A program made the translations under genes and the position numbers. From contig CAMFDG010000023.1 of the NCBI GenBank assembly GCA_945949045.1, positions 1 to 32,727 of the forward strand: a stretch of 32,727 bases of DNA. The letters run 5' to 3'. Each line of letters starts with the position of its first letter. Positions within the stretch are counted from its first letter, which is position 1. Positions 14,411 through 31,066 of this stretch are shown one piece after another. This DNA comes from an uncultured Lachnospiraceae bacterium (GTDB taxonomy: Bacteria > Bacillota > Clostridia > Lachnospirales > Lachnospiraceae). The notes under the pieces were generated by a model. The model ran no database searches. It was not told the DNA's origin and worked only from the letters and a program-made list of their open reading frames with translations.

Positions 14411-14997
14411 TCATTTATTTTTCGACTGCTCTTCCATCCGGGCAATGCCATAGCTGACCTTTACACTACCGCCGGTGTAGAGCTCATGAAAACACCTGAG
14501 AATACGGCCTGCCACCATATCCCCATTCTCATCACCGGTCTCAATCAGGATCACGATGATCTGTTTGCTGGAATATCTGGTGGAGACATCGGACCTGCGT
14601 AAAGACAGATAGATTGACATTTTCCTGGGTATAAACCCGGTTCCACAGTCCCGTCAGGGCATCCTGACAGGACTTATTCTTCATATCAGAGATTTCACGA
14701 TTCTTCTGTTCCAGCCGTTCTGCCAGACTGCTCCGAAGCTCCTCCAGCTCCAGGACTCTTCCGATCCGGGAGCGCATCACTGCCGGGACGAAGGGCTTTG
14801 CGATGAAATCAAAGGCCCCCTCTTTAAAACAGCGGGTCTCCGTTTCACTGTCACTGTCCGCCGTCAGAAAGATCACCGGAATATTTTCACAGTGTTCCAC
14901 GGATTGCCGGAATGATCTTATATTCATCACTCAGAAAACTTCTTGCTGTTGCAAGATTCATTTTATCGTCATCAATCATCAGAATTGTTTTTTTCAT
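14411..14997 (-). pseudogene. Broken response regulator with degenerate GGDEF-like domain
   Basis: The remnant starts at ATG 14995-14997 as MKKTILMIDDDKMN, the first strand of a receiver. Near 14911 the frame shifts and about 30 residues are missing, including the phosphoacceptor Asp. The second frame continues ENIPVIFLTADSDSETETR and FIAKPFVP (receiver end), a coiled-coil linker, and DALTGLWNR, the start of a diguanylate-cyclase-type domain. Near 14600-14635 there is a second junction with loss of the domain middle. A third frame ends it with LRRSDVSTRYSSKQ and VKVSYGIARME. RYSSKQ stands where active cyclases have the R-x-GGDEF loop, so the parent was probably already inactive as a cyclase. 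The receiver part resembles that of the HD-GYP protein at 21292-22317. Last gene of the signalling operon. Confidence 0.75.
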
Positions 14998-15020: not shown

Positions 15021-15842
15021 TTACTGATCCTGCTCTAACACAGCACTTTCGATACCATACTTCTCTGCCAGGGAAGCAATGGTTCCATCCTGGTAGGATG
15101 CAGCCAGGAATTCATTTGCTTTTTCCGTCAGGTCCGATTCCTTTCGAAATCCCACGCATAACACTTCATCATTCAATGCAATAGCAAACCCCAGTTCCTC
15201 AAATTCCTGTCCCTCTCCGGTATAGCAGTCCGCCATAATGACATCGATCACAGCCGCATCCGTTTTTCTGTCACGGACACTCTGCAGTGCCTCCAGCTGT
15301 GTAGGATAGGCGGTGTAACGGAATTTTTTCTCCTTCAGAAGAGCCTCCCCTGTGGAGCCGGTTTCCACAGCAAACAAGAGATGCTGACAGGCTTCCAGCG
15401 TTTGATACTGCTGCCCTTCGCTTTTTCGAAGCACCACCACCTGAGCATTGGAAAGATATGGGTCGGAGCAGGAAATGGTCTGTTTCAATTCCTCCGTCTC
15501 TGTCATCCCATTCCAGATGCAGTCAATGGATCCCTTCCGAAGAAGCTCTGTTTTCTTATCCCAGTCGATTTCCTTAAACTTCAGGGAAACCCCCAGCTCC
15601 CGGGCGAAGGCCTCTGCCAGATCCGCATCAAATCCCACCCAGCTGTCACCCTCCTGGTAATCCATCGGTACAAAATCCGTGATCCCCACCACAAGGGATC
15701 CTTTTGCCTTCACATATTCCAGGTCGGAGCTCTGCAGTCTGTTTCTAGACCGCCCCCCGCCTGTTCCACCGGAACAGGCGGCAAGCAGAGCCGTCATGGC
15801 CACAATGGCAAAAAGCAGGTAAATTCTGTAGTGTTTTTTCAT
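15021..15842 (-). CDS. Family 3 extracellular solute-binding lipoprotein without transporter genes
   Basis: A 273-residue lipoprotein: signal peptide with lipobox LAAC and lipidated C23, a Gly/Ser/Arg linker, then a periplasmic-binding-protein type 2 fold (about 40-265) starting KGSLVVGITDFVPM with GFDADLAEAFARELG, as in amino-acid ABC binding proteins. In those, the motif T-x-T-x-x-R supplies an Arg that binds the ligand carboxylate; here it reads GMTETEELK with L119 at that position, so the ligand may not be a standard amino acid. No permease or ATPase is nearby. It lies 26 bases downstream of the DegV-fused kinase in the same operon, so it may feed a ligand signal to the membrane kinases. 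AAAGGAG precedes the start. Confidence 0.88.
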   Translation of the reverse strand: MKKHYRIYLLFAIVAMTALLAACSGGTGGGRSRNRLQSSDLEYVKAKGSLVVGITDFVPMDYQEGDSWVGFDADLAEAFARELGVSLKFKEIDWDKKTELLRKGSIDCIWNGMTETEELKQTISCSDPYLSNAQVVVLRKSEGQQYQTLEACQHLLFAVETGSTGEALLKEKKFRYTAYPTQLEALQSVRDRKTDAAVIDVIMADCYTGEGQEFEELGFAIALNDEVLCVGFRKESDLTEKANEFLAASYQDGTIASLAEKYGIESAVLEQDQ

Positions 15843-15868: not shown

Positions 15869-18535
15869 CTACTTCATTACGATCTGCAATCCGAAGACTC
15901 CCGGCCCACAGTTGGAAGCCTCCGCCGGAGAAGCCTTCTGACAGATGATCTGCTGGAAGGTCATCCTTTTCTCTACCTGCTTCAAAACCTCACTAAGCTC
16001 CTCCGCAGTCAGACCTGCGTAAGAGACTATCAGCAGCTTATCATCGATCTGTCCCCGGACATGGAACACCGAATTCAGATATTTTCTCCAGGCATGCTCC
16101 TTCGTACCGATCCAGAGAGCGCCTACCTTCATATTGCTTTTTTTCAAAGCAATCACCGGGTGTATCATGAATGCCTTACAAATGGAATTCACGCTCCGCG
16201 GAATTCTCCCGGCCTTCGCCATGTACTCCGTATCTGATACGATAAAGCTGGTTTTCACCCGGCTGCGCAGCCCGTTTAATTCCCTGACGATTTCCTCGGC
16301 ATTCTTTCCATGTGCGGAGGCCTCCGCGGCATAAAGCACCATAAGTCCCAATCCGCCGGAAAGCTGCCCGGAATCTATCACCAGAACATTGTCAAAGGCA
16401 CGAGCCGCCTCCGTAGCCCGCTCGTAAACCCTGCAGGAATGCTTTGCCATCGCGACATGGATGATATACTGTGCTTTAGTCAGCTGCTCTGCAAAATAAG
16501 TCTCATAGTCTGACACTTCCGGCTCCTCGGAATACGCCGTCTTCCCCTTCTCTACGATATAGGAAAGGAGTCCGTCCGTCTCCATCTCTATGCCATCCAG
16601 AAAAGTTCCCCCCTCTGTCACAATCCGGTAGGGCATCACTGCAATCTGGTATTTTTCCAGGATATCCTTTGGAAGATCGCACATGCTCTCCGTGGAAATC
16701 ATAACAGAAAGCCGTTTTCTGTGCTCCACCACCGGAGTCTCCACGACACCGACACTTTCCCCTGACTCCAGTATATTCACCATTTCCCTCGGAAGATGCC
16801 TAAGCAGTTCCTGTTCCAGCAGCTGACTGCTGACCGGCTTGAGCAGATATCCATCAAAACCTTCTCTCTTGTAAAGCGCCTGATTCTCTCCTCCCGCATT
16901 TGCTGTCAGTATCACCACCGGGGTATTCAGATTCAGACCTCCGGTCTGTCTTCTGATCTCATGCAGACATTCCACTCCATCCATCTGGGGCATCAAATGA
17001 TCCATAAAAATGACATTGTAGCGTTTTTTTAATGTTTTTTTCAGGCACTGGGCACCGCTTTCGGCAGTATCAATGGTAACCCTTGTACCCTTAAGCAGTT
17101 TCTTCTCCACCATCAGGTTAGCCTCATTGTCATCGACAATCAGCACATTCGCCTCGGGGGCCTCAAAACTCTGCTTATAGCGGGTTCTGGTATTCCCGGA
17201 CCGGCCGGCCTCCAGATTCAGTTCCCCAATTGCTCCTTCTCCGACAATTTTCTGGGGAAGGGTAATGACAAAAGTGGAGCCCTTCGTATAAACGCTGTTT
17301 ACAGCAATCTCACCGTCCATCAGCTCCACCAGCTGCTTAACGATGGAAAGACCCAGACCAGTTCCTTCAATGTAGCGGTTTTTCTCTTCATCACCCCTCT
17401 TAAAGGCACTGAACAGATAGGGAATATTCTCCTTCTTAATTCCCATTCCCGTATCTGTTACCGAATAGGAAATCTGCGCGCAGCCATCTTCCATCTTCTT
17501 GCAGGAAATGGATAAGGTGACGGAGCCCTCCGATGTATATTTCACCGCATTGTTTAACACATTGATCAGAATCTGCTTGATTCTGACCTCATCCCCACAC
17601 AGCTGTGACGGCATGGACTGATCTACATCAATGTGGAATTCCAGCCCCTTTTCCCTGGCCCTTACCCAGATCATATTGACAATGTCCGACAGCATTGCCC
17701 CCACATCATAATTCACCGCAACAATGTCCATGTTGCCAGATTCTATCTTCGACATATCAAGGATATCATTGATGAGGGTAAGAAGCATTTTGCTTGCCCC
17801 CTGAATGTTCTTCGCATCTGCCGCCACCTCATCGGAGACATCCTCCCTGAGAATCATTTCATTCAGGCCGATAATGGTATTGATGGGAGTTCGGATTTCA
17901 TGGCTCATGCTGGAGAAAAAGCGGTTCTGCATCTGGTTTAATTCTTCAATTTCCTTTTTCTGTTTTTTTGCCAGAGCATTTTCCGAGCGAAAGATGGTGT
18001 TCTGAAACAGAATCATCCCACAGGTCAGCCCCGAAACAATCATCAGGGTCATGATGGAATCCACATAAGCCATCTGTGTCGTATGCTGGACAATCAGGCT
18101 TGGATACGTATAGGCAACATAATAACAGACCGCAAACAGAATATAACCGCTGACCAGGAGAAAATATTTGACTTTTCCTACCACCACAAGGCACACATAA
18201 ACAACCCCCAGCAAAAACCAGATCGGTGCACCTCCATAAATTCCTCCCGTAGTGAGAAAATTATAGGGCAGGATCAGATAAATGAGGAGTGCAGCCGTAA
18301 TCACTGCCCCCCACTGGGTCCTGTTATACCGGACAGAAAAATAGGTAATGGCAGCCAGTGCCACAAAAGCCACACTGATAGCAATGCCGTTACCCATACT
18401 CTCCCCTAAGAGCAGGCCGGCAGCAAAGCCCACCAGAAGCCCGGCCAGACCAATCAGCATGATCAGACGAAAAAGGCGTTCCTGCAGATTCAGATTGGGA
18501 TTTCCGATATCCCGGATCATTTTTTTCAGCTTCAT
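15869..18535 (-). CDS. Hybrid sensor kinase with receiver and C-terminal DegV-like domain
   Basis: An 888-residue fusion. Six or so membrane segments (about 21-178) are followed by HisKA with H212 (SSMSHEIRTPINT), HATPase with N329 (VLNNAVKY), DTGMGI (361-366) and GTGLGL (391-396). A receiver (about 463-580) has D468-D469, phosphoacceptor D512 (FMDHLMP), T544 and K566. From about 608 to the end is a DegV-type domain: ISTESMCDLPKDI at the usual TDSSsDL position, VLVIDSGQLSGGLGL, KAGRIPRS, HPVIALKK and a terminal GPGVFGL. DegV proteins bind fatty acids (FakB in staphylococci). So a lipid-binding fold appears to be covalently joined to a phosphorelay. Its start overlaps the upstream kinase stop by 4 bases. 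All kinase and receiver residues look functional. Confidence 0.88.
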   Translation of the reverse strand: MKLKKMIRDIGNPNLNLQERLFRLIMLIGLAGLLVGFAAGLLLGESMGNGIAISVAFVALAAITYFSVRYNRTQWGAVITAALLIYLILPYNFLTTGGIYGGAPIWFLLGVVYVCLVVVGKVKYFLLVSGYILFAVCYYVAYTYPSLIVQHTTQMAYVDSIMTLMIVSGLTCGMILFQNTIFRSENALAKKQKKEIEELNQMQNRFFSSMSHEIRTPINTIIGLNEMILREDVSDEVAADAKNIQGASKMLLTLINDILDMSKIESGNMDIVAVNYDVGAMLSDIVNMIWVRAREKGLEFHIDVDQSMPSQLCGDEVRIKQILINVLNNAVKYTSEGSVTLSISCKKMEDGCAQISYSVTDTGMGIKKENIPYLFSAFKRGDEEKNRYIEGTGLGLSIVKQLVELMDGEIAVNSVYTKGSTFVITLPQKIVGEGAIGELNLEAGRSGNTRTRYKQSFEAPEANVLIVDDNEANLMVEKKLLKGTRVTIDTAESGAQCLKKTLKKRYNVIFMDHLMPQMDGVECLHEIRRQTGGLNLNTPVVILTANAGGENQALYKREGFDGYLLKPVSSQLLEQELLRHLPREMVNILESGESVGVVETPVVEHRKRLSVMISTESMCDLPKDILEKYQIAVMPYRIVTEGGTFLDGIEMETDGLLSYIVEKGKTAYSEEPEVSDYETYFAEQLTKAQYIIHVAMAKHSCRVYERATEAARAFDNVLVIDSGQLSGGLGLMVLYAAEASAHGKNAEEIVRELNGLRSRVKTSFIVSDTEYMAKAGRIPRSVNSICKAFMIHPVIALKKSNMKVGALWIGTKEHAWRKYLNSVFHVRGQIDDKLLIVSYAGLTAEELSEVLKQVEKRMTFQQIICQKASPAEASNCGPGVFGLQIVMK

Positions 18536-21291
18536 TCTGCCTCACCACCTTCCAACTCTTCAATGAAAGCACCAAGCTTCCCGGAAGCCGAAGTGAATTC
18601 AAAATCCTCCAGATCTCTCCTGATATCCGAAAGCAGTTCCCGGAGAGTTCTGCCCTTAAACACATAATTCTCCATCTTAACAGCCATTTCCTCTGCCTTA
18701 TCCGCTTCATAAGTATCCAGGCTCTGCCTCATCGCCTTCAGCCTCAAAAGCAGTTCTTCTCTGGAAATCTCCACAGTATTTTCTACCACAGCCTCCGTGG
18801 CGGTGTCTTTTTCCAGCTCCAGAACGTCTTTCATGTGCAGGGCAAGCTGTTCATACCGCTCAAGGAGTTCCTCGTGATTCTTTTGAATATAATCGCTGTC
18901 GCCATTCTTCGCAGCCGTCTCCATCTGCTTTGCAAGCGCTGACAGTGGATCTGCTCCCACCATCTTTGCGGTGCTCTTTAAGGCGTGAACCAGAATCTGG
19001 TAATTCTTCCAGTCCTCCTTCTGGTAGAAACCATGAATTTCAGCAGCTTTTTTTCTTTGATCCGTTGCAAACTTTGTCAAAAGCTCCACATAAAATTCCC
19101 TGTCACCGGAACAGTACTGGATGCCGGATGCGGTGCGAAGCTCCTCCCCCTCCAGCCGGTCTATTTTGTCCCCCAGAGACTCGGCTGCTTTGGCCTCCTC
19201 CGATGTATTCAGTGTCTTTCTCTCCTCCTCATCCACATACCGGAAGGAGGAACTCGGCAGTACCTTTCTTAAGATCCGCTCCAGTTCCACCCGTTCAATG
19301 GGTTTGGAGATAAATTCATCAAAGCCCTCCCGCAGAAACATCTCCCTGGCGCCGCTGACCGCATTGGCGGTAAAGGCAATCACCGTAGGCACCCTGCCGG
19401 TATCGGCATAAGTTTTACGAAGCCGCTTTAGGGTTTCCACCCCGTCCATCTCCGGCATCATATGATCCAGGAAGATCAGATCAAACTCCTTACGTTCGCA
19501 GAGCTCGATGGCTTTTCGTCCACTTTCCGCTTTCAGAACAGACATTTGATAATCCTTAAAAATCCCTTCCGCCACCATAAGATTCATGGGCTCATCGTCC
19601 ACCACCAGAACCCGGATTCCCGGACAAATCATAGATTTGTCCTTATACAAAGCATCCGCTTGTGTCTCCTCATTCAAAATATTAACCAGCGGAAGGGTAT
19701 AAAATGGCTTATGTATAAATTTTACCCGGCTCTTTTGGGGTACCGGAAAATCCTCGTCTACCATGGCAACGATCTGTATCTCCGGATCCAGATTCTCCAT
19801 ATAAGCAGCATTTTCCAGATACTCCGGTCCTCCTAGGAACAGGTGTGTCAGCGGGTACACAGAAATCAGCTTCTTTAATTCCTCCATGTGGAATACCCGG
19901 TGCAGCGGCATTTCCAGCCCCTGAACCATGTGAGATATCGTCTCATTGTAATAACTTCTGACCTCAGGGCTTTCACAGGTTTCCGGTCTCAAATAGCAGG
20001 CAAGACACAGTTTCTCCCGGTTCCTAAGTACCATCCCCGGTTCCCCGTCCATCACCTTCTGCGGGATGCTGACCGATACCACGGTTCCAGTCCCCGGCGT
20101 ACTTTCGATCTGAATAAAGCCCTCCATGGCCGAAACCATGCCATACACGATTGGCAGTCCCAGTCCCAGTCCTCCGGCCTTTCGGTTCCTTCCTGCATTG
20201 GACTGATAGAACCGTTCACTGATGCGTTCCAGTTCCTCCCGGGGTATTCCCATTCCTGTGTCACTCACCTGAATGCAGAGATTGATGCCGTATTCTTTCG
20301 GAAGAGCATACATGCGGACATAAATTCCACCTTCACTGGTAAACTTGTAGGCGTTGTCGATCAGATGCTCTAATATCTTCTTGATTTTCTTCTCATCTCC
20401 CAACAGAACCGAAGGAATTGCCGCATCCACATCAAAGATCAAATCCAGCTTCCGGTCCCCCTTTTTCAGACGGTTACTGACGATCAGATCATTGATCAGG
20501 GAGGACACCATATAATTTTCTTCGCTGACCTGTATTTTCCCGGTATCCACCTCCGTATAATCCAGAATGTCCCCGATCTGTCCGAAAAGTCTTTGTCCGG
20601 CGGTCTGTATTGCATGAAGATCCTTCCTTTTTTCACCGTCCTCCTCATTCTTCAGCATCACAGCCGTGATACCGGTGACGGCGTTGATGGGCGTACGAAG
20701 CTCATGGGACACATTGGTGAGAAAGTCCTCCGTCCGCTGATTGTTCATCTCCAGTTCTGCAATGCGCTCCTTATTCAGCCCTCTCTCCCTGCTTCGCCTT
20801 CGGATTGCCACTTTCGTCATGTAGCCGGCGAGATATACCAATAGCAGGTGCAGAAGGGTTCTGGTAATCATAAGAGAAGAGACCTCCAGATGATCCCCCG
20901 TCACAAACAGAAAATCATAGGCCATCGTAAAAAAATACACAGCCACGCAGAGCCGAATGATACTGTAACGCTCCGTAAAAGAGTATAGAATGATGACAGA
21001 AATCATGACAGGTGCCAGATCATAGATACTGGTCTCATGTATTCCATAAAAAAAGAACGCCAGCATGCTGAAACCAAAAAAACAAAAAAGACGTATTTCC
21101 TCCGACAATGTCTCAGTCACATGAATTCCCCAGCACAATACAAGCCCGATCCAAAGAAGAAGCAATGCCCCTTTGTCCCAGCCCAGCAAAAAGGATTCCC
21201 CGGTCAATACGATAATCAACACCGTACATACCAGCAATATCGTCAGATGTGCCGCCCGCTGCTTTTCCTGCTCATAAATTCGCTCGCCCAT
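18532..21291 (-). CDS. Hybrid sensor kinase with two receivers (one degenerate) and HPt domain
   Basis: The protein of 919 residues has about six membrane segments (17-160), HisKA with H196 (TNVSHELRTPINAV), and HATPase with N313 (LIDNAYKF), DTGMGI (344-349) and the G2 box GGLGLGLP. A receiver-like region (about 425-540) lacks an Asp phosphoacceptor. A complete receiver follows (about 558-678; D609 in FLDHMMPEMDG, K663). The HPt domain has H769 in LVHALKSTAKMVGA. A charged helical tail ends it. The chain can in principle carry phosphate from H196 to D609 to H769 and on to separate receivers such as the HD-GYP protein, whose stop codon abuts this ATG. Ribosome binding site GAGGG lies inside the upstream gene. 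Confidence 0.92.
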   Translation of the reverse strand: MGERIYEQEKQRAAHLTILLVCTVLIIVLTGESFLLGWDKGALLLLWIGLVLCWGIHVTETLSEEIRLFCFFGFSMLAFFFYGIHETSIYDLAPVMISVIILYSFTERYSIIRLCVAVYFFTMAYDFLFVTGDHLEVSSLMITRTLLHLLLVYLAGYMTKVAIRRRSRERGLNKERIAELEMNNQRTEDFLTNVSHELRTPINAVTGITAVMLKNEEDGEKRKDLHAIQTAGQRLFGQIGDILDYTEVDTGKIQVSEENYMVSSLINDLIVSNRLKKGDRKLDLIFDVDAAIPSVLLGDEKKIKKILEHLIDNAYKFTSEGGIYVRMYALPKEYGINLCIQVSDTGMGIPREELERISERFYQSNAGRNRKAGGLGLGLPIVYGMVSAMEGFIQIESTPGTGTVVSVSIPQKVMDGEPGMVLRNREKLCLACYLRPETCESPEVRSYYNETISHMVQGLEMPLHRVFHMEELKKLISVYPLTHLFLGGPEYLENAAYMENLDPEIQIVAMVDEDFPVPQKSRVKFIHKPFYTLPLVNILNEETQADALYKDKSMICPGIRVLVVDDEPMNLMVAEGIFKDYQMSVLKAESGRKAIELCERKEFDLIFLDHMMPEMDGVETLKRLRKTYADTGRVPTVIAFTANAVSGAREMFLREGFDEFISKPIERVELERILRKVLPSSSFRYVDEEERKTLNTSEEAKAAESLGDKIDRLEGEELRTASGIQYCSGDREFYVELLTKFATDQRKKAAEIHGFYQKEDWKNYQILVHALKSTAKMVGADPLSALAKQMETAAKNGDSDYIQKNHEELLERYEQLALHMKDVLELEKDTATEAVVENTVEISREELLLRLKAMRQSLDTYEADKAEEMAVKMENYVFKGRTLRELLSDIRRDLEDFEFTSASGKLGAFIEELEGGEAE

Positions 21292-22317
21292 TTATTTTTC
21301 CCTCATCTGATAATCCGTATCCTCATCTATCATGGAAAGCATCATTTCTGCAAATCTTGGATCAAACTGCGATCCCTTTCCCCGCAGCATCTCCTCTCTG
21401 ATCTTTTCCTGGGGAAGCACATCCCGGTAGCTTCTTCTGGAGCTCATGGCATCGTAAGCATCTGCCACTGCAATGATCCGCGCCTCCACCGGAATCGTCT
21501 CGCCGGAGATCCCATCTGGATAACCCCCGCCGTCATAACGTTCATGGTGCCATCTGGCACCGGTGGCAAGCTTTGGAAATTCCGTAATATTTTTCAGGAT
21601 ATCCGCTCCCATCACCGGATGCTGTTTGATAACGGCATACTCTTCCCCGGTAAGCTTTGCCGGCTTATTGATGATTGCATCCGGCACGCCAATCTTCCCC
21701 ACGTCATGCAAAAGCCCCATCATATAAATATCGTTCTGCTCCTTCTCTGAAAAGCCGGCACGTTCTGCAATCTTTCTGGAGTACTCTGCCACTCTTGTGG
21801 AATGACCGTTGGTATAGGTATCCTTGGCATCAATGGCACCGGAAAGTGACGTTACAATCTGCATGGAGATCCTCTCCAGCTTCTCGTGCTGTGCCATGAC
21901 TTCCTGGGTCTTCTTTTCCACCTCATGGGATAAATCGGTCTGCAGCCGGATGAGATCCAGGGTATGTCTGACACGCAGCAGAAGTACCTCCGGAACAAAG
22001 GGCTTCTTTAAAAAATCCATCGCCCCGGCCTTTAACCCTCTGGCCTCCGTCTCGCTGTCATCGTCTGCCGTGAGAAATATTACCGGAATATCGGCAGTCT
22101 TTTCATTTTCCCTGAGCGCAGCACAAGTCTCAAAGCCGTCCATCCCCGGCATATGGATATCAAGAAGAATGAGATCCGGCCGGTTATTCTGAAGAAAATC
22201 AATTGCGTTCCGGCCGGATTTCAGACAGCTCACCCGCATATTCTCTGCGCTCAATATACGGCTTGCAATTCTCAGGTTTGCCGCATCATCATCAATCACT
22301 AAAATCCAATCACTCAT
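21292..22317 (-). CDS. Response regulator with HD-GYP cyclic-di-GMP phosphodiesterase domain
   Basis: A 341-residue protein with a receiver (D9-D11 acidic patch, phosphoacceptor D53 in LLDIHMPGMDG, K105 in KKPF), a helical linker (about 120-160), and an HD-GYP domain. Metal and signature residues are complete: H172 (NGHSTRV), H204-D205 (LLHDVGKIG), H233 (KQHPVMG), H257-H258 with GGGYPDG, and D286 (AVADAYDAM). HD-GYP enzymes hydrolyse cyclic di-GMP, so an active c-di-GMP-lowering enzyme controlled by phosphorylation is expected. Its start overlaps the stop of a 21-codon ORF (ATGA), with GAGGAAA upstream. The following hybrid kinase starts immediately after its stop, so it is the likely phosphate acceptor. 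Confidence 0.95.
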   Translation of the reverse strand: MSDWILVIDDDAANLRIASRILSAENMRVSCLKSGRNAIDFLQNNRPDLILLDIHMPGMDGFETCAALRENEKTADIPVIFLTADDDSETEARGLKAGAMDFLKKPFVPEVLLLRVRHTLDLIRLQTDLSHEVEKKTQEVMAQHEKLERISMQIVTSLSGAIDAKDTYTNGHSTRVAEYSRKIAERAGFSEKEQNDIYMMGLLHDVGKIGVPDAIINKPAKLTGEEYAVIKQHPVMGADILKNITEFPKLATGARWHHERYDGGGYPDGISGETIPVEARIIAVADAYDAMSSRRSYRDVLPQEKIREEMLRGKGSQFDPRFAEMMLSMIDEDTDYQMREK

Positions 22318-22421: not shown

Positions 22422-23225
22422 TTATTCATTCTTTTCCTTCTTCTTTTCTTTCTCCTTAAAATACATCATCATGGCATGCTCGGCTTCCATACTGTCTTTG
22501 GTGTAGGTTGCATTGGAAATAGGAAAAAGAATGCACCCACAGTGCCCCTTGAAGGTGGGAACGCAGATCACCTGCAGGTGGGCGTCAATCTCAGGACTGT
22601 ATTCCATAAACTCCATCGTCTCGTTATAGAGGGCAACACGCGTATAATACTTCAGCCACTTGGTATCCATATTGGGAAACAGACGGCCAAAGGAACTGCC
22701 GATCAGCTGATCCAGCGGCTTCTTTTCCAGTTTTGCCAGGGCGGCGTTGCCGTACTTAAAAATCCAATCCACTGCATGGCTTTCCTCATCCAGAACCATC
22801 TCGATATCCGTAAAGGCGATGGGCAGCTTCTCAAAGATTTGAAAATGCTCCCGGTATTCCTCCTGGGTCCCTGGAATATCCATCCGGCCAAAGCTTCTGA
22901 ACATATCCCTCTGCCATGCATGAACCTGGTCAATGATCTGGTTTTTCTTACCAAGGGTGTAAATCAGTTCCTCTCCATTGATCAGATGAATCCTGTCGGC
23001 GACATCACAGACTGCCATGGCAGCAACCAGACAGCCTTTGTTCACCCTGATGAAGCCGTCCCCCAGCTCCTCCTCAAGGCTGCTCAAAGTCATCCTTGTC
23101 TCATAGATCCTGCCTCCATAGACATGAATCTGTGCTTTTTTTCCATTCATGAGGATATAGAGAATCGTACTGATACCAAGTACTGTCTTTTTCCTGTTGG
23201 AAATAAAGGTTATGGTTCTCCTCAT
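22422..23225 (-). CDS. LytTR DNA-binding regulator with C-terminal PAS-like domain
   Basis: The protein of 267 residues has an N-terminal LytTR-type DNA-binding domain (about 1-110; TRMTLSSLEEELGDGFIRVNKGCLVA is the characteristic part, shown here as the segment at residues 43-68) and a PAS-like sensor (about 128-240; PIAFTDIEMVLDEE, then DWIFKYGNAALAKL). There is no receiver, so the PAS part, rather than phosphorylation, probably senses the signal. The start is ATG 23223-23225, behind GAGGGTGTGAGG; longer frames would begin inside the promoter at 23296-23324. It is the first gene of the c-di-GMP/phosphorelay operon and could control that operon, the adjacent polymer cluster, or both. Confidence 0.88.
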   Translation of the reverse strand: MRRTITFISNRKKTVLGISTILYILMNGKKAQIHVYGGRIYETRMTLSSLEEELGDGFIRVNKGCLVAAMAVCDVADRIHLINGEELIYTLGKKNQIIDQVHAWQRDMFRSFGRMDIPGTQEEYREHFQIFEKLPIAFTDIEMVLDEESHAVDWIFKYGNAALAKLEKKPLDQLIGSSFGRLFPNMDTKWLKYYTRVALYNETMEFMEYSPEIDAHLQVICVPTFKGHCGCILFPISNATYTKDSMEAEHAMMMYFKEKEKKKEKNE

Positions 23226-23295
23226 ATCCTCACACCCTCTAAACGCTTTCTCTAAACGCTGGCCATAGATCCTATTACCCAAATTATTTGTATTT

Positions 23296-23324
23296 AGTAT
23301 ACTTTTTACGACAGGAAATAGCAA
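23296..23324 (-). promoter_or_regulatory. Promoter of the signalling operon
   Basis: TTGCTA (23319-23324), a 17-base spacer, and TATACT (23296-23301) on the minus strand, giving a leader of about 60-65 bases before the LytTR ATG. It lies just after the end of the glycosyltransferase gene, with no clear terminator between, so the polymer cluster may also read through. Confidence 0.7.
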
Positions 23325-23348
23325 GCCTTTCTTTCCGCTTGGATAAAA

Positions 23349-24764
23349 TTAAGTTTCTCCCTCAGAGTCGTAGTTGATCTTTACCCGTCTGATTTTCCCC
23401 CATTTTGTCTTTTTCCCCCGCATATGCAGCGGTGCAAGCATTCTGGTCCAGGCCATGACAAAGCGAAGGAATACGACCTCGGGAATACAGAACAAAAATG
23501 CCCGCAGAATATCGCAAAGTTTTACCCTGTGCTCGCTGAGAAAGTTTCTTGTCGTAAAGGTGATCACCGTGAGCAGTGCCCCGAAAACCGCATAGATGAC
23601 AAAAATAGCAACGGTCACCGGCAGGTTGATAATTCCCACCACATAGGCCAGAATCGTACACAAAAAGCCAAAAAGCTCAATGATCGGGGACAACATTTCG
23701 TAAAAGAGATAATAAAAATAGCTCCCCATGCTCATGACACGGCTGTGTCCCGCCATACTCTGGATCAAACCGATATGCCACCTTCTCCGCTGTCTGATCA
23801 GGTCCCGCAGACGCTCCGGGCACTGGGTCCAGCACACTGCATCATAGGCATATTTGATGACGCAGGGAAGGTGATTGGACCGATGGTATTCATGAAGCTT
23901 CATGATCAGCTCCATGTCCTCTCCCATACAGTTATTTTTATAGCCTCCCACTGCCAGAACAGCCTCCTTTTTGAACAATCCAAAGGCCCCTGAGACGATC
24001 AGGTTGGCATTAAATTTATCAAGAAAGATTCGGGATGCAAGGAAAGATCTCTCATATTCCAGCACCTGAAATGCCGGAATGATTTTTTTTGGCATCCGAA
24101 GTTCCACCAGCTCCCCATCCTGAAAAACACTGTCATTGCAGATCCGAACCATGCTGCCCACAGCAGCTACGTTCTCATTTTCCAGCACCGGCAGCACGAT
24201 TTTGTTCAAAGCATCCTTTTGCAGGATGGAATCTGCATCCATACAGATAAAATACGGAAATCTGGAAGCATTGATGCCCATATTGATGCTGTCCGCCTTG
24301 CCACCGTTCTCCTTGTTGATCAGCGTAATGGATACCCGCTCTGCCATGCTTCCCTCATATATGGATACCGGATCCTTGCAGGCTAACTGACGCCGGATCG
24401 GTCTTTGTACCTCATGAAGTCCGTATCGTTCTGTCACAATCTCTGCTGTCTGATCCGTAGAGCCATCATTTACCACAATGATCTCATAGCTTTTGTAATC
24501 CAGATGCAGCAGGGAACTTATGGTCTCTGCGATGGTGACCTCCTCATTATAAGCCGGCACAATAATACTGACCGGAACAAAGTAATCATGATGGATCTCG
24601 TTTCGAAGCTGTTTCTTTTTCATGCTGTTGAAGGTCTCATTACAGCCACTCAGCACGGAAATAAAGAGAAATGACGCATAGCCGATGAGATATACCACAA
24701 AAAAGATTTCCGCAAAGGAGATGACTGCCTTGATCATTTCCATATGCTCATAAATAAAAGCCAT
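23349..24764 (-). CDS. Processive GT2 family glycosyltransferase (BcsA/PgaC-like)
   Basis: A 471-residue inner-membrane synthase. One N-terminal membrane segment (about 15-38), cytoplasmic GT-A domain, then a set of C-terminal membrane segments (about 340-450). Motifs expected of a processive beta-glycan synthase are all present: VVNDGSTD (D100), ICMDADS (D176 and D178), NCMGEDMEL (D283) and QRRRW (325-329). This type makes linear polymers such as cellulose, poly-GlcNAc or hyaluronan; the substrate cannot be read from sequence. No PilZ domain is present. ATG 24762-24764 is used here; TTG three bases upstream has better spacing from AGGAGG and is a possible start. Last gene of the six-gene cluster, overlapping the upstream stop. 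Confidence 0.92.
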   Translation of the reverse strand: MAFIYEHMEMIKAVISFAEIFFVVYLIGYASFLFISVLSGCNETFNSMKKKQLRNEIHHDYFVPVSIIVPAYNEEVTIAETISSLLHLDYKSYEIIVVNDGSTDQTAEIVTERYGLHEVQRPIRRQLACKDPVSIYEGSMAERVSITLINKENGGKADSINMGINASRFPYFICMDADSILQKDALNKIVLPVLENENVAAVGSMVRICNDSVFQDGELVELRMPKKIIPAFQVLEYERSFLASRIFLDKFNANLIVSGAFGLFKKEAVLAVGGYKNNCMGEDMELIMKLHEYHRSNHLPCVIKYAYDAVCWTQCPERLRDLIRQRRRWHIGLIQSMAGHSRVMSMGSYFYYLFYEMLSPIIELFGFLCTILAYVVGIINLPVTVAIFVIYAVFGALLTVITFTTRNFLSEHRVKLCDILRAFLFCIPEVVFLRFVMAWTRMLAPLHMRGKKTKWGKIRRVKINYDSEGET

Positions 24765-25882
24765 CAATTTTCTTCCTCCTTCGACCTGTTTTTTTGTTCC
24801 TCAATGAGCCTTCCAATATAGTCAGACATTACCGGATCCTCTCTGTACTGATACACAAGAGCCTCGTTGGTATACGGATCCTCAAGGCCAATGATTTCTG
24901 CAATCTCCTGCTCATCCATCCCGCTGTTTTTAAGATATTCCAACGCATTCACACGCACATACCAGTTTTCGCTGGTGATGTGGCTTTTCATCAGGTCACG
25001 TATTTCTTTTTCCTGCCATCTGCCAAGTCCCTGAATGGCCAGCATTTCCTCTACCCAGCCGCCTTCCTCCCGGGACCGAAGCATATCCGCAAACATTCCC
25101 TTTGCTTTCTCATCCGGATATTTCAGGAAGTACCGTATTGCTGTGTATCTCACCTGGCTGCCCTTTGGCTCGAGGATGATGACTCTCCTGCAGAAGTCCC
25201 CCGCGTCCACCTCCGCGAACCGGAAATATTCCAGGATGCATTCCTTCGTGAAATCGCTGTATCTGTCATACTGTTCCATCAGCGCAGCAGCCAGTTCCTT
25301 TTTATCCACCCGGGCACTCAGCAGTCCGTCCACAAAGAGCTTTTTGTGATAAAAGCCTGCCCGCTCATCCACCACGTCTATGGCATTCATAAGAATACAA
25401 AGGTCACCAAATTCGTACACAGCAGCCATGGTATTGGAAAAGGTATACAAAGACCCGCTCTTTAGAAATGACAGAAACTCACTGGCAAAATAAGAGGATA
25501 TCCGGGCCCTCTCATAGCCGAGCGCAGATACCACATAAGCGTAATAGGCCTGCTCATAGTCCGATTTTTTCCGATACTCAAACAACAGAGAATAGACGAC
25601 CTCCCGAAACCAGTCCCTGGCATAGGGTTTTACCTCCAGAACACCCTGTAATGCCAGCAGATACTTTGTCTTCCTGCACCTTTCCCTTACAGAATCCAGC
25701 CATCCGGCGGAAAACTCCCCCGTCGTATTTTTTTGTTCTATTTCTTCTCCGACCCTCTTTTCGAATCGTGGCATTCTCGGATAAAATCTCTGATTTCTCG
25801 CATTTTTCACAATCAGAAACCCAATATCAAACACCAGTAAAATCACACATACCATCATGTAGATCTGCACAACGATGTTCAT
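24764..25882 (-). CDS. Membrane-anchored HEAT-repeat-like protein
   Basis: The 372-residue protein has one N-terminal membrane segment (about 4-25) followed by an all-helical cytoplasmic or surface region. Near the C-terminus several 30-residue helical pairs look like HEAT repeats (for example VRYTAIRYFLKYPD, EEMLAIQGLGRWQ and WYVRVNALEYLKN). HEAT repeats are protein-binding scaffolds. Its stop overlaps the glycosyltransferase start and its own start overlaps the upstream glycosidase-like gene by 4 bases, so it probably acts as an assembly partner of the synthase. AAAGGAG precedes the ATG. No enzymatic motif is seen. Confidence 0.75.
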   Translation of the reverse strand: MNIVVQIYMMVCVILLVFDIGFLIVKNARNQRFYPRMPRFEKRVGEEIEQKNTTGEFSAGWLDSVRERCRKTKYLLALQGVLEVKPYARDWFREVVYSLLFEYRKKSDYEQAYYAYVVSALGYERARISSYFASEFLSFLKSGSLYTFSNTMAAVYEFGDLCILMNAIDVVDERAGFYHKKLFVDGLLSARVDKKELAAALMEQYDRYSDFTKECILEYFRFAEVDAGDFCRRVIILEPKGSQVRYTAIRYFLKYPDEKAKGMFADMLRSREEGGWVEEMLAIQGLGRWQEKEIRDLMKSHITSENWYVRVNALEYLKNSGMDEQEIAEIIGLEDPYTNEALVYQYREDPVMSDYIGRLIEEQKNRSKEEEN

Positions 25883-28059
25883 ACGCCGCTCCTTTCAGCC
25901 TTCCAATACTCTCTGATCATTTCGTAGGATTCCTTCCGTCTCTCATGATAAGCGGGAGACTTTCCCAAAGGCTTAAGGGCTGCCCACTCCATCTTAATCT
26001 CGCAGGATCCGTCTCCTGCCCCTGCTGCGATCCGGTCTATAGAAAGATATTCCACGCCGTAGTTTTCATAATAGTCATCGTGAATGAACATTTTTACCGG
26101 ATCCGCCACATTCAAAAGCTGCCAGGGAATGCGAATTTCCACACAATCCTCTCCGCTGCAGAAATCCGTCAGGGAATCAAAATCTTCCGCCCCGGGATCC
26201 CCGTTGCCGTAATGCAGCTTTCCGGTTTCATAGCAGGCCTTCACCTTATAGTGGTACGGATTATAGGAATCATATTCCCTGAAGGTGATCCGCCGGTCAT
26301 CCGGAGAACCTTCACTCTCCAGATCCTCCGTTTCATAGTACAGTTCCTCCTGCAAAAGCATATGAATCTGGGAGAATACCGGAGAATCCTTTTTCGGAAA
26401 TTCCTTTGAAAAAAAGTCCCGGGCACTGATTTCCTCGTTAAAAAGAGCAGACAGCATATTATACCGGTCCTGCACCCACACCCTGCTGTTATTCCTGCCA
26501 TTGATCTCGATGCAGAAATCCGCCGCCCGGTTCATGGAGATTCCCAGATTTTGTGCGGTTTTCGAGCCGCTTTTCGGAGTGATATCGATGGGAATGTACA
26601 AATGATCACGACAAAAGTCATATCCCTTCTGCTCCACCATAAAATACAGGCAGGCCTCGTCATATTTCATGTAGAGCCGGATTCCATCCCGGCTTAAGAC
26701 CAGATCGCTTTCTCCCCATTCCGATATTTTCCCGTCCACGCAGCAGATACTCTCTTTTTCTCCCGGTTCAAAGGCTAAGAGTCCATAAAACGCGTCACAG
26801 GACTGACGGTTGACCCAGTAGGGGGAATCCTCACTGTTTACACCGGCCACACAGTTCCAGGTGGTTTTGTACCATTCATCCTGCCATTCATAGATGATTC
26901 CACCGGCACAGCCTGCTTTGCGGATATCGTCATACATGGAAATGACCGCCTCCCCCTGCTGCGTTTCATTCAGACGGCCCATATTTCTGCCCAGACCCTT
27001 TTCCTCTGCAGAGAGAGTTCTTGCGGAGGACGCTCCAAATCCGGATATGACCACCGGCATGCTGTGGTGAGCATTGAGTGCTTTCAGGTACTGTCTATAT
27101 GTATTCATTTCATGTACGTCCATATAACTATAAAAATCCGGGTAGGCGGGGTAGACATGATAGGAGGCAAACTGTCCCGCCACAAACTGCTCTGTGGATT
27201 TAATATGCTCTGTGTCCACCTTTGCCGCCTTCTTAAAATAAACCTCCAGTTCCTCCCCGTAGGACAGGGGATCCGTCATCGTCCAGTTCCCAAAAGAGAT
27301 TGTTTTCTGGGCTCCGTATTTCTCCATCTCATAGGAGATAAGTTCATCCCCCATTTCCGCAAGAAAGATCTCAAAATTACCAGCCCCCCGGGTGCAAAGG
27401 TATTTTCCTTCAAACTGGGGCTGCTGTTCAAAGGAGCGGTCCGTGTAGGCTACCAGCGTGGTCTCCCACTCCCCGCCCAGGATATACCCGTACACCCATG
27501 GGGAGACATCCCGGTTATAATGGGTGGGAAAAAGGCCGTAATCCGAATGGGTTTTTAATCTTCCATGGACAGCATCTACCGTTTTTTTACAATTTCTCGC
27601 AAAGGGCTTGTAGAATTCCTCGTCTAACGCCCCATAGATGGAATTTACCAGATACTCGTCAATGGCAATTCCCTGGATGAGATAAACGGGATCCTTGTTT
27701 CCCTCATTGAATTCATACAGAGCATCATAAAAGGCCTTCGGCCCCATAGTCTCCACGCCGATGACGTTGGCACCCATTTCTTTGATCTGCCGGATCCAGC
27801 TTAAATACTCCTCCCTGGAAACGGCATCCTCCGTGGCATAGTACCCCGGCTTACTAAAGCCCAGATTGACACCCCGAATCTCAAACTTCTGAAATCCTTC
27901 CCTCCCCTTCAGGTACAGAGTGTCCCCCCTCACCTGAGATATACACGCCACATCCTGTTGCCCCCGGGACAGATAAACCACTCCCGCATAATAATACAGA
28001 TAGTTCCACACAAAAATACCGATCACCAGGATCAGGGAGCCCGCAATCACTTTCTTCAA
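25879..28059 (-). CDS. Membrane-anchored TIM-barrel glycosidase-like protein, catalytic Glu apparently missing
   Basis: The protein of 726 residues has an N-terminal membrane anchor (about 5-26), a TIM-barrel glycoside-hydrolase-like part (about 55-410), and a C-terminal beta region (about 430-710) resembling a CBM9/DOMON carbohydrate-binding fold. GYILGGEWE (E197) fits the acid/base position. The second catalytic position normally reads ...E-F-G after a beta strand, but here it is MPVVISGFGASSAR with G340 (codon GGA; Glu would be GAA). The match YEWQDEWYKTTWN follows. If this reading is right it binds rather than cuts glycan. It starts with TTG (28057-28059) behind AGGAGGTG, four bases after the CotH stop; no nearby in-frame ATG exists. 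Part of the six-gene cluster. Confidence 0.8.
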   Translation of the reverse strand: MKKVIAGSLILVIGIFVWNYLYYYAGVVYLSRGQQDVACISQVRGDTLYLKGREGFQKFEIRGVNLGFSKPGYYATEDAVSREEYLSWIRQIKEMGANVIGVETMGPKAFYDALYEFNEGNKDPVYLIQGIAIDEYLVNSIYGALDEEFYKPFARNCKKTVDAVHGRLKTHSDYGLFPTHYNRDVSPWVYGYILGGEWETTLVAYTDRSFEQQPQFEGKYLCTRGAGNFEIFLAEMGDELISYEMEKYGAQKTISFGNWTMTDPLSYGEELEVYFKKAAKVDTEHIKSTEQFVAGQFASYHVYPAYPDFYSYMDVHEMNTYRQYLKALNAHHSMPVVISGFGASSARTLSAEEKGLGRNMGRLNETQQGEAVISMYDDIRKAGCAGGIIYEWQDEWYKTTWNCVAGVNSEDSPYWVNRQSCDAFYGLLAFEPGEKESICCVDGKISEWGESDLVLSRDGIRLYMKYDEACLYFMVEQKGYDFCRDHLYIPIDITPKSGSKTAQNLGISMNRAADFCIEINGRNNSRVWVQDRYNMLSALFNEEISARDFFSKEFPKKDSPVFSQIHMLLQEELYYETEDLESEGSPDDRRITFREYDSYNPYHYKVKACYETGKLHYGNGDPGAEDFDSLTDFCSGEDCVEIRIPWQLLNVADPVKMFIHDDYYENYGVEYLSIDRIAAGAGDGSCEIKMEWAALKPLGKSPAYHERRKESYEMIREYWKAERSGV

Positions 28060-28062
28060 GGA

Positions 28063-29559
28063 CTAATTCACCTCCTGATAGTTGATGCTTTTGTTAAGAG
28101 AATCATGACACAGGGTATACAGCCTGTCGATGTGGGTATCCATGTGACGGATTCTTTGAGAAATGCAGGTTTTTAGCTGGTCAATGGCTTCCTCATAGTT
28201 TCTCGGATTTCGTTCACGGGGATACAGATAGTCGTATACCACCCCATTGTATGTGCTGCAAAAACTGTACCCCCACTTATCGTAATTGCGGTCAATGGCC
28301 GGTCCCAGATATGCAATTGTCCCGTCAATATACCCAAACAGGTACTCTTCATTCAAATAGGTTTTCCTCAGCTCATGATATCTGGCTACCACCCGGTCCA
28401 CAAAAGCTTTATCCTTAAACAGATACGAATACCACATACTGTTCTGAAGAGAGAAGGTCTCCGGGGACACCACGGAAAATTCGTAATAATCAAAGGCGGA
28501 ATTGAAATCCCACACACACAGCTTCATCTTTCCACCCAGATCCCGGTACAGGAAGGTGGACAATCCCATCGCGTCATAATTTAAGGTAAATTCGTTGATC
28601 AGAAAATAATTCACAAAGGACTCCACGTCAATGTATGCCTGATAGCCGTGACGTTTATCCCTGTAGTCGTAGGAATACAGTGCTTTCTCAAACCGGGAGA
28701 TATCTGATTCAATATACTGCCTCTGGCCCTCCGTCAGCGTGGAAGAGGGATATTCGATCTGATAGTAGCCCCTTCTTTCTGCTCCTGTATTGGCCGAAAT
28801 GTAGGAGTAGCTGGCAAAGGTCTCGATGCTTTCCAATTCGTTGTGGGAGTCTCTGTCAATCTGCACGATATAGGAGGTGGTGTCCACCTTTGGGTTTGTC
28901 TTTTCAATTTCTATGCGGCCGTCATCGCTGTATTCCACCTTCTCGACAATCAGATACACACCCATATATTCCCCATTGACAAATGCCTCGCAGAACCGTA
29001 CGTTAGGAGCGCAATCCATGATTTCTCCCGCCAGATTATAACAGAGATAATTTCGGATCAGTGTTTTATCCAGAAAAGGGCCATGCAGCGCCCACTCGCT
29101 GTCAGCTGTCATACCTGACAGGGACACCTTTTTGCCGGTCACCAGATCTGCTTCCTTAAACTTGATCAGATACCCCGGCTTATCGTATTTACGAGAGGAG
29201 GCCCCGCGGATCCGGATCAGTGCCCTCTCACGGACGACCGGAGTATCCGTCAGATGGTTGTTCTCTATCTCAGAATCAAAATACTCGATGGAAGCCCCTA
29301 CCATCTCATCATTTTTCAGGAAATACCCATCCTGATCCATCAAAGCAAGATAAGGCGATGGGACAGGCTCGTCCGTTGTAATGCTGATCAGGGGCAGATG
29401 GGTGCAGAACACCTCTCTGCCATGGTCTGTGCAGGCTGTTTTCGGAAGTGCCTCCTGATGCTGGTGATACCGGTTTTTCCTCACATCCAGATTCTGCAAA
29501 CCAAAAGCGCCCAGAAGAATGGACAAAATAATTACGATGGAAAGAATTTTATATTTCAT
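28063..29559 (-). CDS. CotH kinase-family protein, secreted or membrane-anchored
   Basis: The protein of 498 residues has a signal anchor (about 4-22), then a CotH-type domain. Family motifs are RIRGASSRKYDKPGYLIKF (RGxSSR at 118-123), NGEYMGVYLIVEKVEY, INEFTLNYDA, YRDLGGKMKL (D340) and VWDFNSAFD (350-357). CotH proteins are atypical extracellular kinases; B. subtilis CotH phosphorylates spore coat protein CotB. The canonical metal motif WDxD is WDFN here, with Asn for the second Asp, as I recall for some clostridial relatives. Its start overlaps DUF4956 by 4 bases. Placement beside VTC and DUF4956 genes is a recurrent grouping in bacteria. The substrate is unknown; nothing suggests a spore coat here. 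Confidence 0.9.
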   Translation of the reverse strand: MKYKILSIVIILSILLGAFGLQNLDVRKNRYHQHQEALPKTACTDHGREVFCTHLPLISITTDEPVPSPYLALMDQDGYFLKNDEMVGASIEYFDSEIENNHLTDTPVVRERALIRIRGASSRKYDKPGYLIKFKEADLVTGKKVSLSGMTADSEWALHGPFLDKTLIRNYLCYNLAGEIMDCAPNVRFCEAFVNGEYMGVYLIVEKVEYSDDGRIEIEKTNPKVDTTSYIVQIDRDSHNELESIETFASYSYISANTGAERRGYYQIEYPSSTLTEGQRQYIESDISRFEKALYSYDYRDKRHGYQAYIDVESFVNYFLINEFTLNYDAMGLSTFLYRDLGGKMKLCVWDFNSAFDYYEFSVVSPETFSLQNSMWYSYLFKDKAFVDRVVARYHELRKTYLNEEYLFGYIDGTIAYLGPAIDRNYDKWGYSFCSTYNGVVYDYLYPRERNPRNYEEAIDQLKTCISQRIRHMDTHIDRLYTLCHDSLNKSINYQEVN

Positions 29560-30263
29560 GAGATCTCATCACTCTGCACAACGGTATTGACATAATCCAC
29601 ACCCCCGAGGGCAAACAGCTTATCGGAGATGGACTGCTGCATACGCTCCTGGGAAACCGCCAGCTTTCTTTCCTTTTCCTTCGATTTCTCAAATATCTTC
29701 CGGTCCAGCTCATAAATAAACTCCACGGTTTCAGCTGTGGCATTCTCTGTCTTCAGCACCGGTGCTTTCGTAAAGTATTCATAGACGCTCTGCCGGACCT
29801 CATCTGCCCGGCTGCGGTCGCAGCGGATAATCAGCAGCAGCCTGTTTTCGTTCTTCACTCTTCCGAGGAAAAGCAGCACAACAAAAACCATGGCACTTCC
29901 GATTCCCGCGACGATAAAGTCTCCTACTCCACAACAGATTCCCAGTATGATGGTCCAGAAAATATAAGCAGTGTCCCGGCTGTCCTTGATGGAGGTACGG
30001 AACCGGACAATAGACAGAGCTCCCACCATCCCCAGGGACAGCGCCACGTTATTTCCAATCACCGTCATAACCATGGTAGTAAGAATTGTTAAGGTGACCA
30101 GCGTAATATTGAATTTTGCACTGTAAACAGAGCCTGAATGGGTGATTCTGTACGAAAGAAATACCACAATGGCAAAGGCCGCCGAAACCGCCATCCGGAT
30201 TGTGATGTCCTGGACACTCAGGGTACCCTGGCTGGTAATAATGTCATATAAATATTTGTTCAT
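29556..30263 (-). CDS. DUF4956 membrane protein
   Basis: This 235-residue protein has about four membrane segments (22-38, 50-69, 98-117, 118-135), then a cytoplasmic alpha/beta tail (about 140-225). The signature LGMVGALSIVRFRTSIKDSR (residues 78-96) lies between membrane segments 2 and 3 and is the hallmark of DUF4956. No biochemical function is established for this family; it is repeatedly found with VTC-domain and CotH genes, as here. AGGAGG lies 4 bases before the ATG. It is the second gene of the cluster, 30 bases after the VTC-domain gene. Confidence 0.9.
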   Translation of the reverse strand: MNKYLYDIITSQGTLSVQDITIRMAVSAAFAIVVFLSYRITHSGSVYSAKFNITLVTLTILTTMVMTVIGNNVALSLGMVGALSIVRFRTSIKDSRDTAYIFWTIILGICCGVGDFIVAGIGSAMVFVVLLFLGRVKNENRLLLIIRCDRSRADEVRQSVYEYFTKAPVLKTENATAETVEFIYELDRKIFEKSKEKERKLAVSQERMQQSISDKLFALGGVDYVNTVVQSDEIS

Positions 30264-30293
30264 AAAACCTCCTGGGTTGTTTTTTCTATTACA

Positions 30294-30986
30294 CTACTGA
30301 AATGGATAAGTGACAGATCTGCTCAGACAGTATTTACTGGATGATATGCTTCTTGCATCCACCCGGGAAATCAAATTCGATATGTATTCCAATATAAATT
30401 TATCATATTTTACTTCAAAGATTACTTTATCCGGCGGAAATACCGGCGTCAGGGGGAGTTTTTCCGAAAACAGGTTAAAGTCTGTCTCCGTGGCCCTGAT
30501 GTCGCCGTCAAAGGTGAGACGGATATTATTTTCCCTGGCCATAAATGCATACCGCTGATACTCGACAATGGATTTGGGACGGTACAGTTCACCGGCCATA
30601 AGGGTATAAAGCTCCGCTGCAAAATCCTCAGAATAACGAAGCAGCACGGAATAATTTCCCCCGATCAGTTCCAGCGCCTCCGCTTTTGAGATGGTAAGTG
30701 ACCTTTTTCTCTGGAAAATATTCTCCTTCTGTTTCATCTCCAGCTTCGCTCTCTGATCTGTTGGACTGTATATTCTAAGCCTTATCTTACGCCTTACGTT
30801 CTGTTCATTGATCTTTTGGAAGTAGTCCCTATCCTCCGGTGTATCAAAGTACAGGGACCGCACCATATAGCTTCCCCTCTGGGAAAAGCTGTCCGTCATC
30901 AGCATGGCGGAAAATACACTGCGGTATTCATACGCATAGGTCACATCCAGCGGATATTTTTCTTCTCTTCTGCACACTGAGATCAT
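30294..30986 (-). CDS. VTC-domain protein (polyphosphate-polymerase-like)
   Basis: A 230-residue single-domain protein of the VTC (polyphosphate polymerase, TTM-like tunnel fold) family. Basic and acidic tunnel residues are present in order: EEKYPLD (K10), VRSLYFDTPEDRDYF, RRKIRLRIY (65-73), KLEMKQKE (E83, K85), IRLTFDGDIRAT (R156) and VIFEVKYDKF (E191, K193). Yeast Vtc4 makes polyphosphate from ATP with this fold; bacterial members are less well defined. The start is ATG 30984-30986 behind AAAGGAGG; an upstream GTG is less likely. It heads the six-gene cluster. A possible divergent minus-strand promoter (TTGTCA at 31068-31073) is too weak to list separately. Confidence 0.9.
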   Translation of the reverse strand: MISVCRREEKYPLDVTYAYEYRSVFSAMLMTDSFSQRGSYMVRSLYFDTPEDRDYFQKINEQNVRRKIRLRIYSPTDQRAKLEMKQKENIFQRKRSLTISKAEALELIGGNYSVLLRYSEDFAAELYTLMAGELYRPKSIVEYQRYAFMARENNIRLTFDGDIRATETDFNLFSEKLPLTPVFPPDKVIFEVKYDKFILEYISNLISRVDARSISSSKYCLSRSVTYPFQ

Positions 30987-31066
30987 GACAAGCCTCCTTT
31001 CAACGGTCCGCACCCTCTCTCAGTGTATTCATACCTTCATCATAATATGTGGTATTTTCGTTCCTG

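Follow-up and report, generated by a model that had tools for sequence, protein, structure and literature searches.

Few histidine kinases are known to us whose sensor has been proven to bind fatty acids, and in Gram-positive bacteria the connection of two-component signalling with the state of fatty acids has, as far as we are aware, been indirect so far. The RpfC and RpfG proteins of Xanthomonas, which we take to have the layouts HK-REC-Hpt and REC-HD-GYP, respectively, resemble two products of the locus described here (window 18532-21291 and 21292-22317), the likeness being one of layout; we know of nothing like a DegV kinase in that system. DhaQ, a co-activator related to the kinase subunit DhaK, acts with a regulator of the TetR type, whereas the DegV domain that is the subject of this analysis is fused into a phosphorelay. 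Passages of PMC5391125 place the action of the fatty-acid signal DSF on the histidine kinase RpfC, which senses it with a 22-residue N-terminal region. In Staphylococcus aureus, the SaeRS two-component system depends for its activity on the fatty acid kinase, according to parts of PMC5539427; a fusion of FakB with a kinase is not mentioned in those parts.

The fused domain comes closest to the FakB/DegV fatty-acid binders (PF02645; FakB2, structure 4x9x, and FakB1, structure 5uto), from which it differs in being tethered to a hybrid kinase. The network and docking residues of FakB2 are presumably T61, S93, R170, R202 and H266, in numbering as in role; the letters T, S, R, R and H do stand at these positions in 4x9x. 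For FakB1, sections of PMC8892158 describe a network made up of Thr62, Ser95, Ser171, His270 and the carboxylate, a catalytic requirement for Arg173 and a role for Arg205 as the key residue binding FakA, with both arginines completely conserved in the family. These FakB1 residues would be the counterparts of those of FakB2 (Arg205 that of Arg202, for example). A description joining DegV with a hybrid kinase was not found in the open-access papers that were searched, so that the suggestion of the initial annotation, that this architecture may be undescribed, stands; DegV as mentioned in passages of PMC3146951, PMC12688256, PMC9912610, PMC3533761, PMC8406281, PMC5757299 and PMC6593474 is unrelated to kinase fusion. 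The parts are each known; their combination, the partner and the residue signature appear to be new.

The window, which is the whole 32,727-nucleotide stretch analysed, carries on its minus strand, in this order, genes for a REC-HD-GYP protein, an HK-REC-Hpt kinase, the HK-REC-DegV kinase and a solute-binding lipoprotein, followed by the remnant of a REC-GGDEF gene; the first three genes abut or overlap by 4 bp.

21292-22317, minus strand: REC-HD-GYP response regulator, a predicted c-di-GMP phosphodiesterase with HHERYDGGGYP present (Pfam); abuts the partner kinase gene.
18532-21291, minus strand: partner kinase HK-REC-Hpt, 919 aa, with DHp His196, receiver Asp609 and Hpt His769 (Pfam and alignment).
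15869-18535, minus strand: HK-REC-DegV membrane hybrid kinase, 888 aa (frame, Pfam and full-length relatives).
17966-18535, minus strand: N-terminal part of the fused kinase, residues 1-190, with six predicted long helices (AlphaFold), putatively in the membrane.
17246-17965, minus strand: HisKA (H212) and HATPase_c (N329, GTGLGL), about residues 191-430 (Pfam and alignment).
16808-17146, minus strand: receiver, residues 464-576, with phospho-acceptor D512 and K566 (Pfam and alignment).
16718-16768, minus strand: linker, residues 590-606, pLDDT below 50 in the full-length model (AlphaFold).
15878-16705, minus strand: DegV domain, residues 611-886 (Pfam, alignments and predicted fold).
15021-15842, minus strand: extracellular solute-binding lipoprotein, SBP_bac_3 (Pfam), 26 bp downstream of the HK-REC-DegV gene.
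14429-14991, minus strand: REC-GGDEF response regulator remnant in three frames (comparison with locus L045).

The fused kinase is encoded in a single frame, 888 codons long, that opens with ATG and ends at a stop codon. HisKA, HATPase_c, Response_reg and DegV follow one another in this order, each far above its Pfam cut-off (146.2 bits for DegV, PF02645, where the curated cut-off is 27), and the marks of a hybrid kinase are present: the HisKA histidine, the N and G boxes of the HATPase, and the Asp and Lys of the receiver. The initial annotation had read this composition from one uninterrupted frame, and frame and Pfam search bear it out; structure prediction, compared with known structures, likewise gives the two-lobed DegV fold that it had anticipated, close to lipid-loaded structures. 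Its membrane segments are upheld as far as six long helices are concerned, which a full-length AlphaFold model (60 sequences) places from residue 17 on, the sixth continuing into the dimerisation helices. These are taken as membrane helices, a placement that the model suggests; a Pfam search with the N-terminal part gave no match, even with E relaxed to 1. The stretch that joins the receiver to DegV (residues 590-606) is probably a flexible tether, judging from the same model. The overall pTM of that model is 0.47, so that it does not give the arrangement of the domains, and it does not establish that DegV touches either the receiver or the kinase.

That a fault of sequencing, assembly or gene calling had joined two genes was one alternative, the genome of the window being a draft of 78 contigs. 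It is refuted by relatives with the full-length fused frame, found in at least 15 of 36 genomes of the same genus (the window's own included) and in isolates; the artefact named in the initial annotation as a refuting explanation is rejected, and we allow it a vanishingly small probability. The genus figure comes from a set of 60 genomes: the window's own, 35 others from its genus and 24 from its order. At least 21 places in the 36 same-genus genomes hold full-length matches, 39-69% identical among the matches listed, the window itself aside; none was full-length among the matches listed for the 24 same-order genomes outside the genus.

Wider sampling traces the fusion through the family and, more thinly, beyond it. 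With about one genome taken per genus, at least 46 of 299 genomes of the family have a matching frame of at least 700 aa, the kinase domains being confirmed for part of them. Frames of this length at E 1e-60 or better occur in nine of 391 genomes of a class sample, six belonging to the same family and the remaining three to a single other one; in one of these three (L202) the frame holds all four domains, HisKA, HATPase, receiver and DegV, and has a partner kinase as its neighbour. Three of 398 genomes in a phylum sample have such a frame, all of the same family, and the other 17 that match at E 1e-60 have frames of 284-397 aa, the length of a free DegV gene. A scan of named genomes gave 281 confirmed loci; the 80 considered divide, going by their record titles, into 46 from Lachnospiraceae, 14 from Oscillospiraceae, two from Treponema, two from Eubacteriaceae and 16 less exactly or not placed, many being metagenome bins with loose names, with isolates among them. 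For three named records, two of them isolates and the third a Treponema bin, the fused protein was confirmed by Pfam. The bins labelled Treponema (L067 and L074) carry fused proteins that group together inside the Clostridia set, which suggests either transfer between phyla or mis-binning; L067 also has REC-HD-GYP and HK-REC-Hpt genes. A plasmid search returned 20 records, all below 60% identity; the five listed are four annotated DegV family proteins and one unannotated place.

The survey of kinase-DegV fusions in Lachnospiraceae that the initial annotation had proposed thus found them there and outside: 122 of 135 distinct kinase/receiver-DegV frames match over N-terminal part, HisKA, HATPase, REC and DegV, many of these 122 coming from stretches that also cut the N-terminal part. 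"Distinct" means non-identical over the end of the DegV domain, so that close relatives remain in the count. Six of the 13 incomplete frames are cut by the end of the stretch (L043, L044, L064, L136, L148, L155), two are broken or split (L053, L063), three lack an N-terminal match (L081, L164, L167), and two (L163, L165) match in HATPase and DegV only. These last (L163 2781-5375, L165 2433-5060) have no receiver and no HisKA by profile, nor by Pfam in L163, and are possibly degenerate kinases; in L133 the kinase part lies in another frame. Catalytic residues are invariant in a 60-row alignment. The HK-REC-DegV architecture is real and conserved.

What distinguishes the fused DegV domain from its free relatives is best seen at the FakB residues. 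T61, S93, R170 and H266 of FakB2 correspond to S669, C701, R777 and N875 of the window protein; R202 corresponds to T811 in a pairwise alignment and to I809 in a multiple alignment, and the exact counterpart is unsure. Since neither residue is Arg, the loss of the docking Arg in the window protein holds despite this difference. The comparison across the family rests on 135 fused rows (with a FakA-like fusion left out, two edge rows included, a cut copy of the window gene, L005, serving as the window's DegV row, and the alignment of L202 doubtful at the first three FakB residues) and on 53 unfused DegV proteins. At the His266 column, the fused domains have Asn in 131 of 135 and His in none, as against His in 51 and Tyr in two of the 53 unfused proteins; at the Arg202 column, Arg is found in one of 135 fused domains and in all 53 unfused ones. 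From these two losses the fused DegV is predicted to be uncoupled from FakA. The pocket side appears to be only partly eroded: the Thr61 column holds Ser or Thr in 116 of 135 (S669 in the window is a conservative change); the Ser93 column, Cys in the window, holds Ser in 101 and Gly in 29; and the Arg170 column holds Arg, which the window retains, in 81, Lys in 19 and Tyr in 18. Seventeen of these 18 Tyr170 rows also have Gly93, and the carboxylate site may accordingly be gone in that part of the family, which takes in four chemoreceptor-linked paralogues.

Fused and unfused DegV domains differ clearly at 35 alignment columns, counted along the sequence. Among these are T8, T11 and S15 (FakB2) of the start motif, whose divergence in the window protein the initial annotation had singled out as a possible cause of altered binding. 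The divergence is confirmed; as the key change, the start motif was dropped, since we are aware of no FakB function for these columns. The docking Arg and the carboxylate-network His both have a function in FakB and are for that reason taken as the more telling changes. Besides a single FakA-like gene, the genome of the window has four unfused DegV genes of full length; three keep the whole set of five FakB residues, and the fourth has Ser61 and Tyr266. The host would thus retain ordinary parts for fatty acid phosphorylation. Judged from its sequence, with His266 replaced by Asn, Ser93 by Cys and the FakA-docking Arg202 lost, HK-REC-DegV is best filed as a hybrid kinase phosphorelay with a repurposed DegV domain, and not as a FakB.

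The second recurrent feature of these loci is the Hpt-bearing partner kinase, which the initial annotation did not take into account and whose gene in the window overlaps the start of the fused gene by 4 bp. An HK-REC gene lies directly upstream of the fused gene in 84 of 92 distinct loci with at least 1500 bp upstream. The remaining eight are so classed by the rule applied: no HK is seen directly upstream in L163, L164, L165 and L054, nor within the 1.7 kb upstream in L063; in L162 the partner is split into two frames, with its Hpt kept; and in L053 and L106 an HK with Hpt is present upstream and was missed by the overlap or frame rule. A control with other hybrid kinases in the fetched loci, three of ten of which also have an HK directly upstream, is weak, being small and not clean (the three lie in the same clusters as fused genes).

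The Hpt domain ties the two proteins together. Its His is present in 80 of 85 partner rows (the 84 partners and the window's own) and a gap in five. These five, the partners in L157-L161, are proteins of 677-719 aa in which Pfam finds no Hpt, and the corresponding fused proteins, 1129-1166 aa long, carry a Pfam Hpt after the DegV domain. That either the fused protein or its partner carries the Hpt is good evidence that both work as one unit, and these pairs show a movement of the domain between the two proteins. An extension of more than 70 aa beyond DegV is found in seven fused frames. Five are those with Hpt; the other two, L156 and L162, represent one gene and continue for 108 aa in which Pfam finds no match. 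Upstream of the partner, genes typed by simple patterns (n = 81, with three more loci lacking flank) comprise 65 with a receiver, four chemoreceptors, 11 others and one case of nothing; examples of receiver and chemoreceptor were confirmed by Pfam, and several of 59 "REC" rows are REC-HD-GYP. The four chemoreceptor cases are paralogues (L037, L038, L040, L041) with a methyl-accepting chemotaxis gene, confirmed in L037 by Pfam, where a response regulator would otherwise stand.

How such a pair might have come about can be read from a quick tree of 72 DegV domains, rooted at the midpoint, for which 35 kinase-fused domains were chosen from the fetched ones. The 35 lie on one side of a branch with SH-aLRT 95, and together with two unfused proteins, L171 and L172, they form a set with support 100. 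The genes of L171 and L172 lie 4 bp from, or overlap, an HK-REC-Hpt gene; both proteins carry Asn at 266 and Phe at 202, and in the tree they fall immediately outside the fused group. In L172 the DegV gene is followed by a REC-GGDEF gene. Profiles from the fused family, which may miss other kinases, place an HK gene next to one of the 53 remaining unfused DegV genes (L179) and a receiver gene next to two (L091, L168); the receiver next to L091 belongs to a fused module, and in L168 an HK follows. The unfused DegV gene of L091 (1094-2038, plus strand), which stands immediately ahead of the module's receiver gene, has the full set of five FakB residues. Because the fused domains tested form one group, the residue changes represent few events and not 131. 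The order that these relationships suggest is a free FakB-type protein, then a DegV gene in a kinase operon with both residues lost, then a single fusion to the second kinase, and lastly transfer of the Hpt in one branch; the family would thus be a readable evolutionary series. A gene that occurs in L166 and L203 complicates the reading of the residue losses. It encodes a 601-aa frame (L166 2096-3898, plus strand) with DAK2, a FakA-like middle domain and DegV, that is, kinase and carrier in one chain. Its DegV domain also has Asn266, with Phe202, and this exception means that Asn266 and the loss of Arg202 may mark any tethering rather than sensing.

The reading that we favour, with somewhat more belief than doubt, is that a FakB/DegV-type domain, freed from presenting fatty acids to FakA, is reused as the intracellular sensor module of a two-kinase phosphorelay. 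The membrane kinase would autophosphorylate at H212 and pass the phosphate to its own receiver at D512. Since HK-REC-DegV itself lacks both an Hpt and an output domain, this receiver would exchange phosphate with the Hpt of the partner HK-REC-Hpt, which in turn would feed the neighbouring response regulator. Here that regulator is the REC-HD-GYP protein, with c-di-GMP hydrolysis as the predicted output; in relatives, a lone receiver, a REC-GGDEF protein or a chemoreceptor gene would take the output place. A lipid-like ligand in the tethered DegV domain would change the activity of kinase or receiver. We infer that the fused DegV binds a ligand, presumably a fatty acid or similar lipid, and that it serves as input rather than output. 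The presence of the fused protein nearly always beside its partner kinase, in many related bacteria, suggests that lipids are read directly into the relay.

The direction of the signal is the point at which this reading could be turned around. Phosphorylation of the receiver might instead open or close DegV, so that the relay would control capture or release of a lipid. The order REC-DegV is that of response regulators with outputs, output domains being common after a receiver, and the link between REC and DegV is predicted by AlphaFold to be disordered. However, 134 of 135 fused domains lack the Arg that docks FakA and all 135 lack the network His, which makes hand-over to the known lipid pathway unlikely, and in the five variants of 1129-1166 aa the Hpt that follows DegV places the latter inside the relay, not at its end. 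Such an output role is in our view quite improbable.

It is also conceivable that nothing is bound at all, the DegV fold serving solely as a surface for dimer formation or for docking of the partner kinase. Erosion of the carboxylate residues in the Gly93 and Tyr170 members, and the 35 columns at which fused and unfused domains differ, speak for an empty scaffold; the Ser and Thr held by most of the 135 at the Thr61 and Ser93 columns, and a predicted fold that resembles lipid-loaded structures, speak against it, and we consider it improbable, if a little less so than the output role. Closer to the favoured explanation, with which it overlaps, is a sensor for a ligand that is not a fatty acid but, for example, some other amphiphile, or a lipid alcohol or amide, Asn taking the place of the network His. 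The prevalence of Asn at the His266 column (131 of 135) is what recommends this variant, which differs from our preferred explanation in the ligand; it is the likeliest of the alternatives, and still rather unlikely.

To a wider proposal we give tentative credence that falls somewhat short of even: that these proteins are a new class of intracellular lipid receptor, in which a fatty-acid-carrier domain, cut off from FakA through the missing docking Arg and network His, feeds lipid status directly into a conserved two-kinase relay that governs c-di-GMP, lone receivers or chemotaxis in Clostridia of gut type, and perhaps in some Treponema. A kinase with a built-in carrier-type domain makes the connection between fatty acids and two-component signalling directly testable, with one domain and one expected class of ligand, and the unfused FakB-type proteins of the same genome are a natural control.

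The surroundings of the module in the window add some minor observations. The gene for the solute-binding lipoprotein is found at the same place in several close relatives, L045 among them, and its product may bring a second signal to the kinases. The three pieces of the REC-GGDEF remnant match amino acids 4-36, 65-166 and 393-455 of an intact 461-aa relative in L045, with most of GGDEF absent, a state that may reflect genuine decay or an error in the draft assembly. Upstream of the module, window 22422-31013 (minus strand) encodes a LytTR protein, a glycosyltransferase of family 2 with weak likeness to PgaC, a protein whose HEAT match stays below threshold, an unmatched protein of 726 aa, a CotH kinase, a DUF4956 protein and a VTC domain, and may be a surface polymer cluster that the c-di-GMP module could serve.
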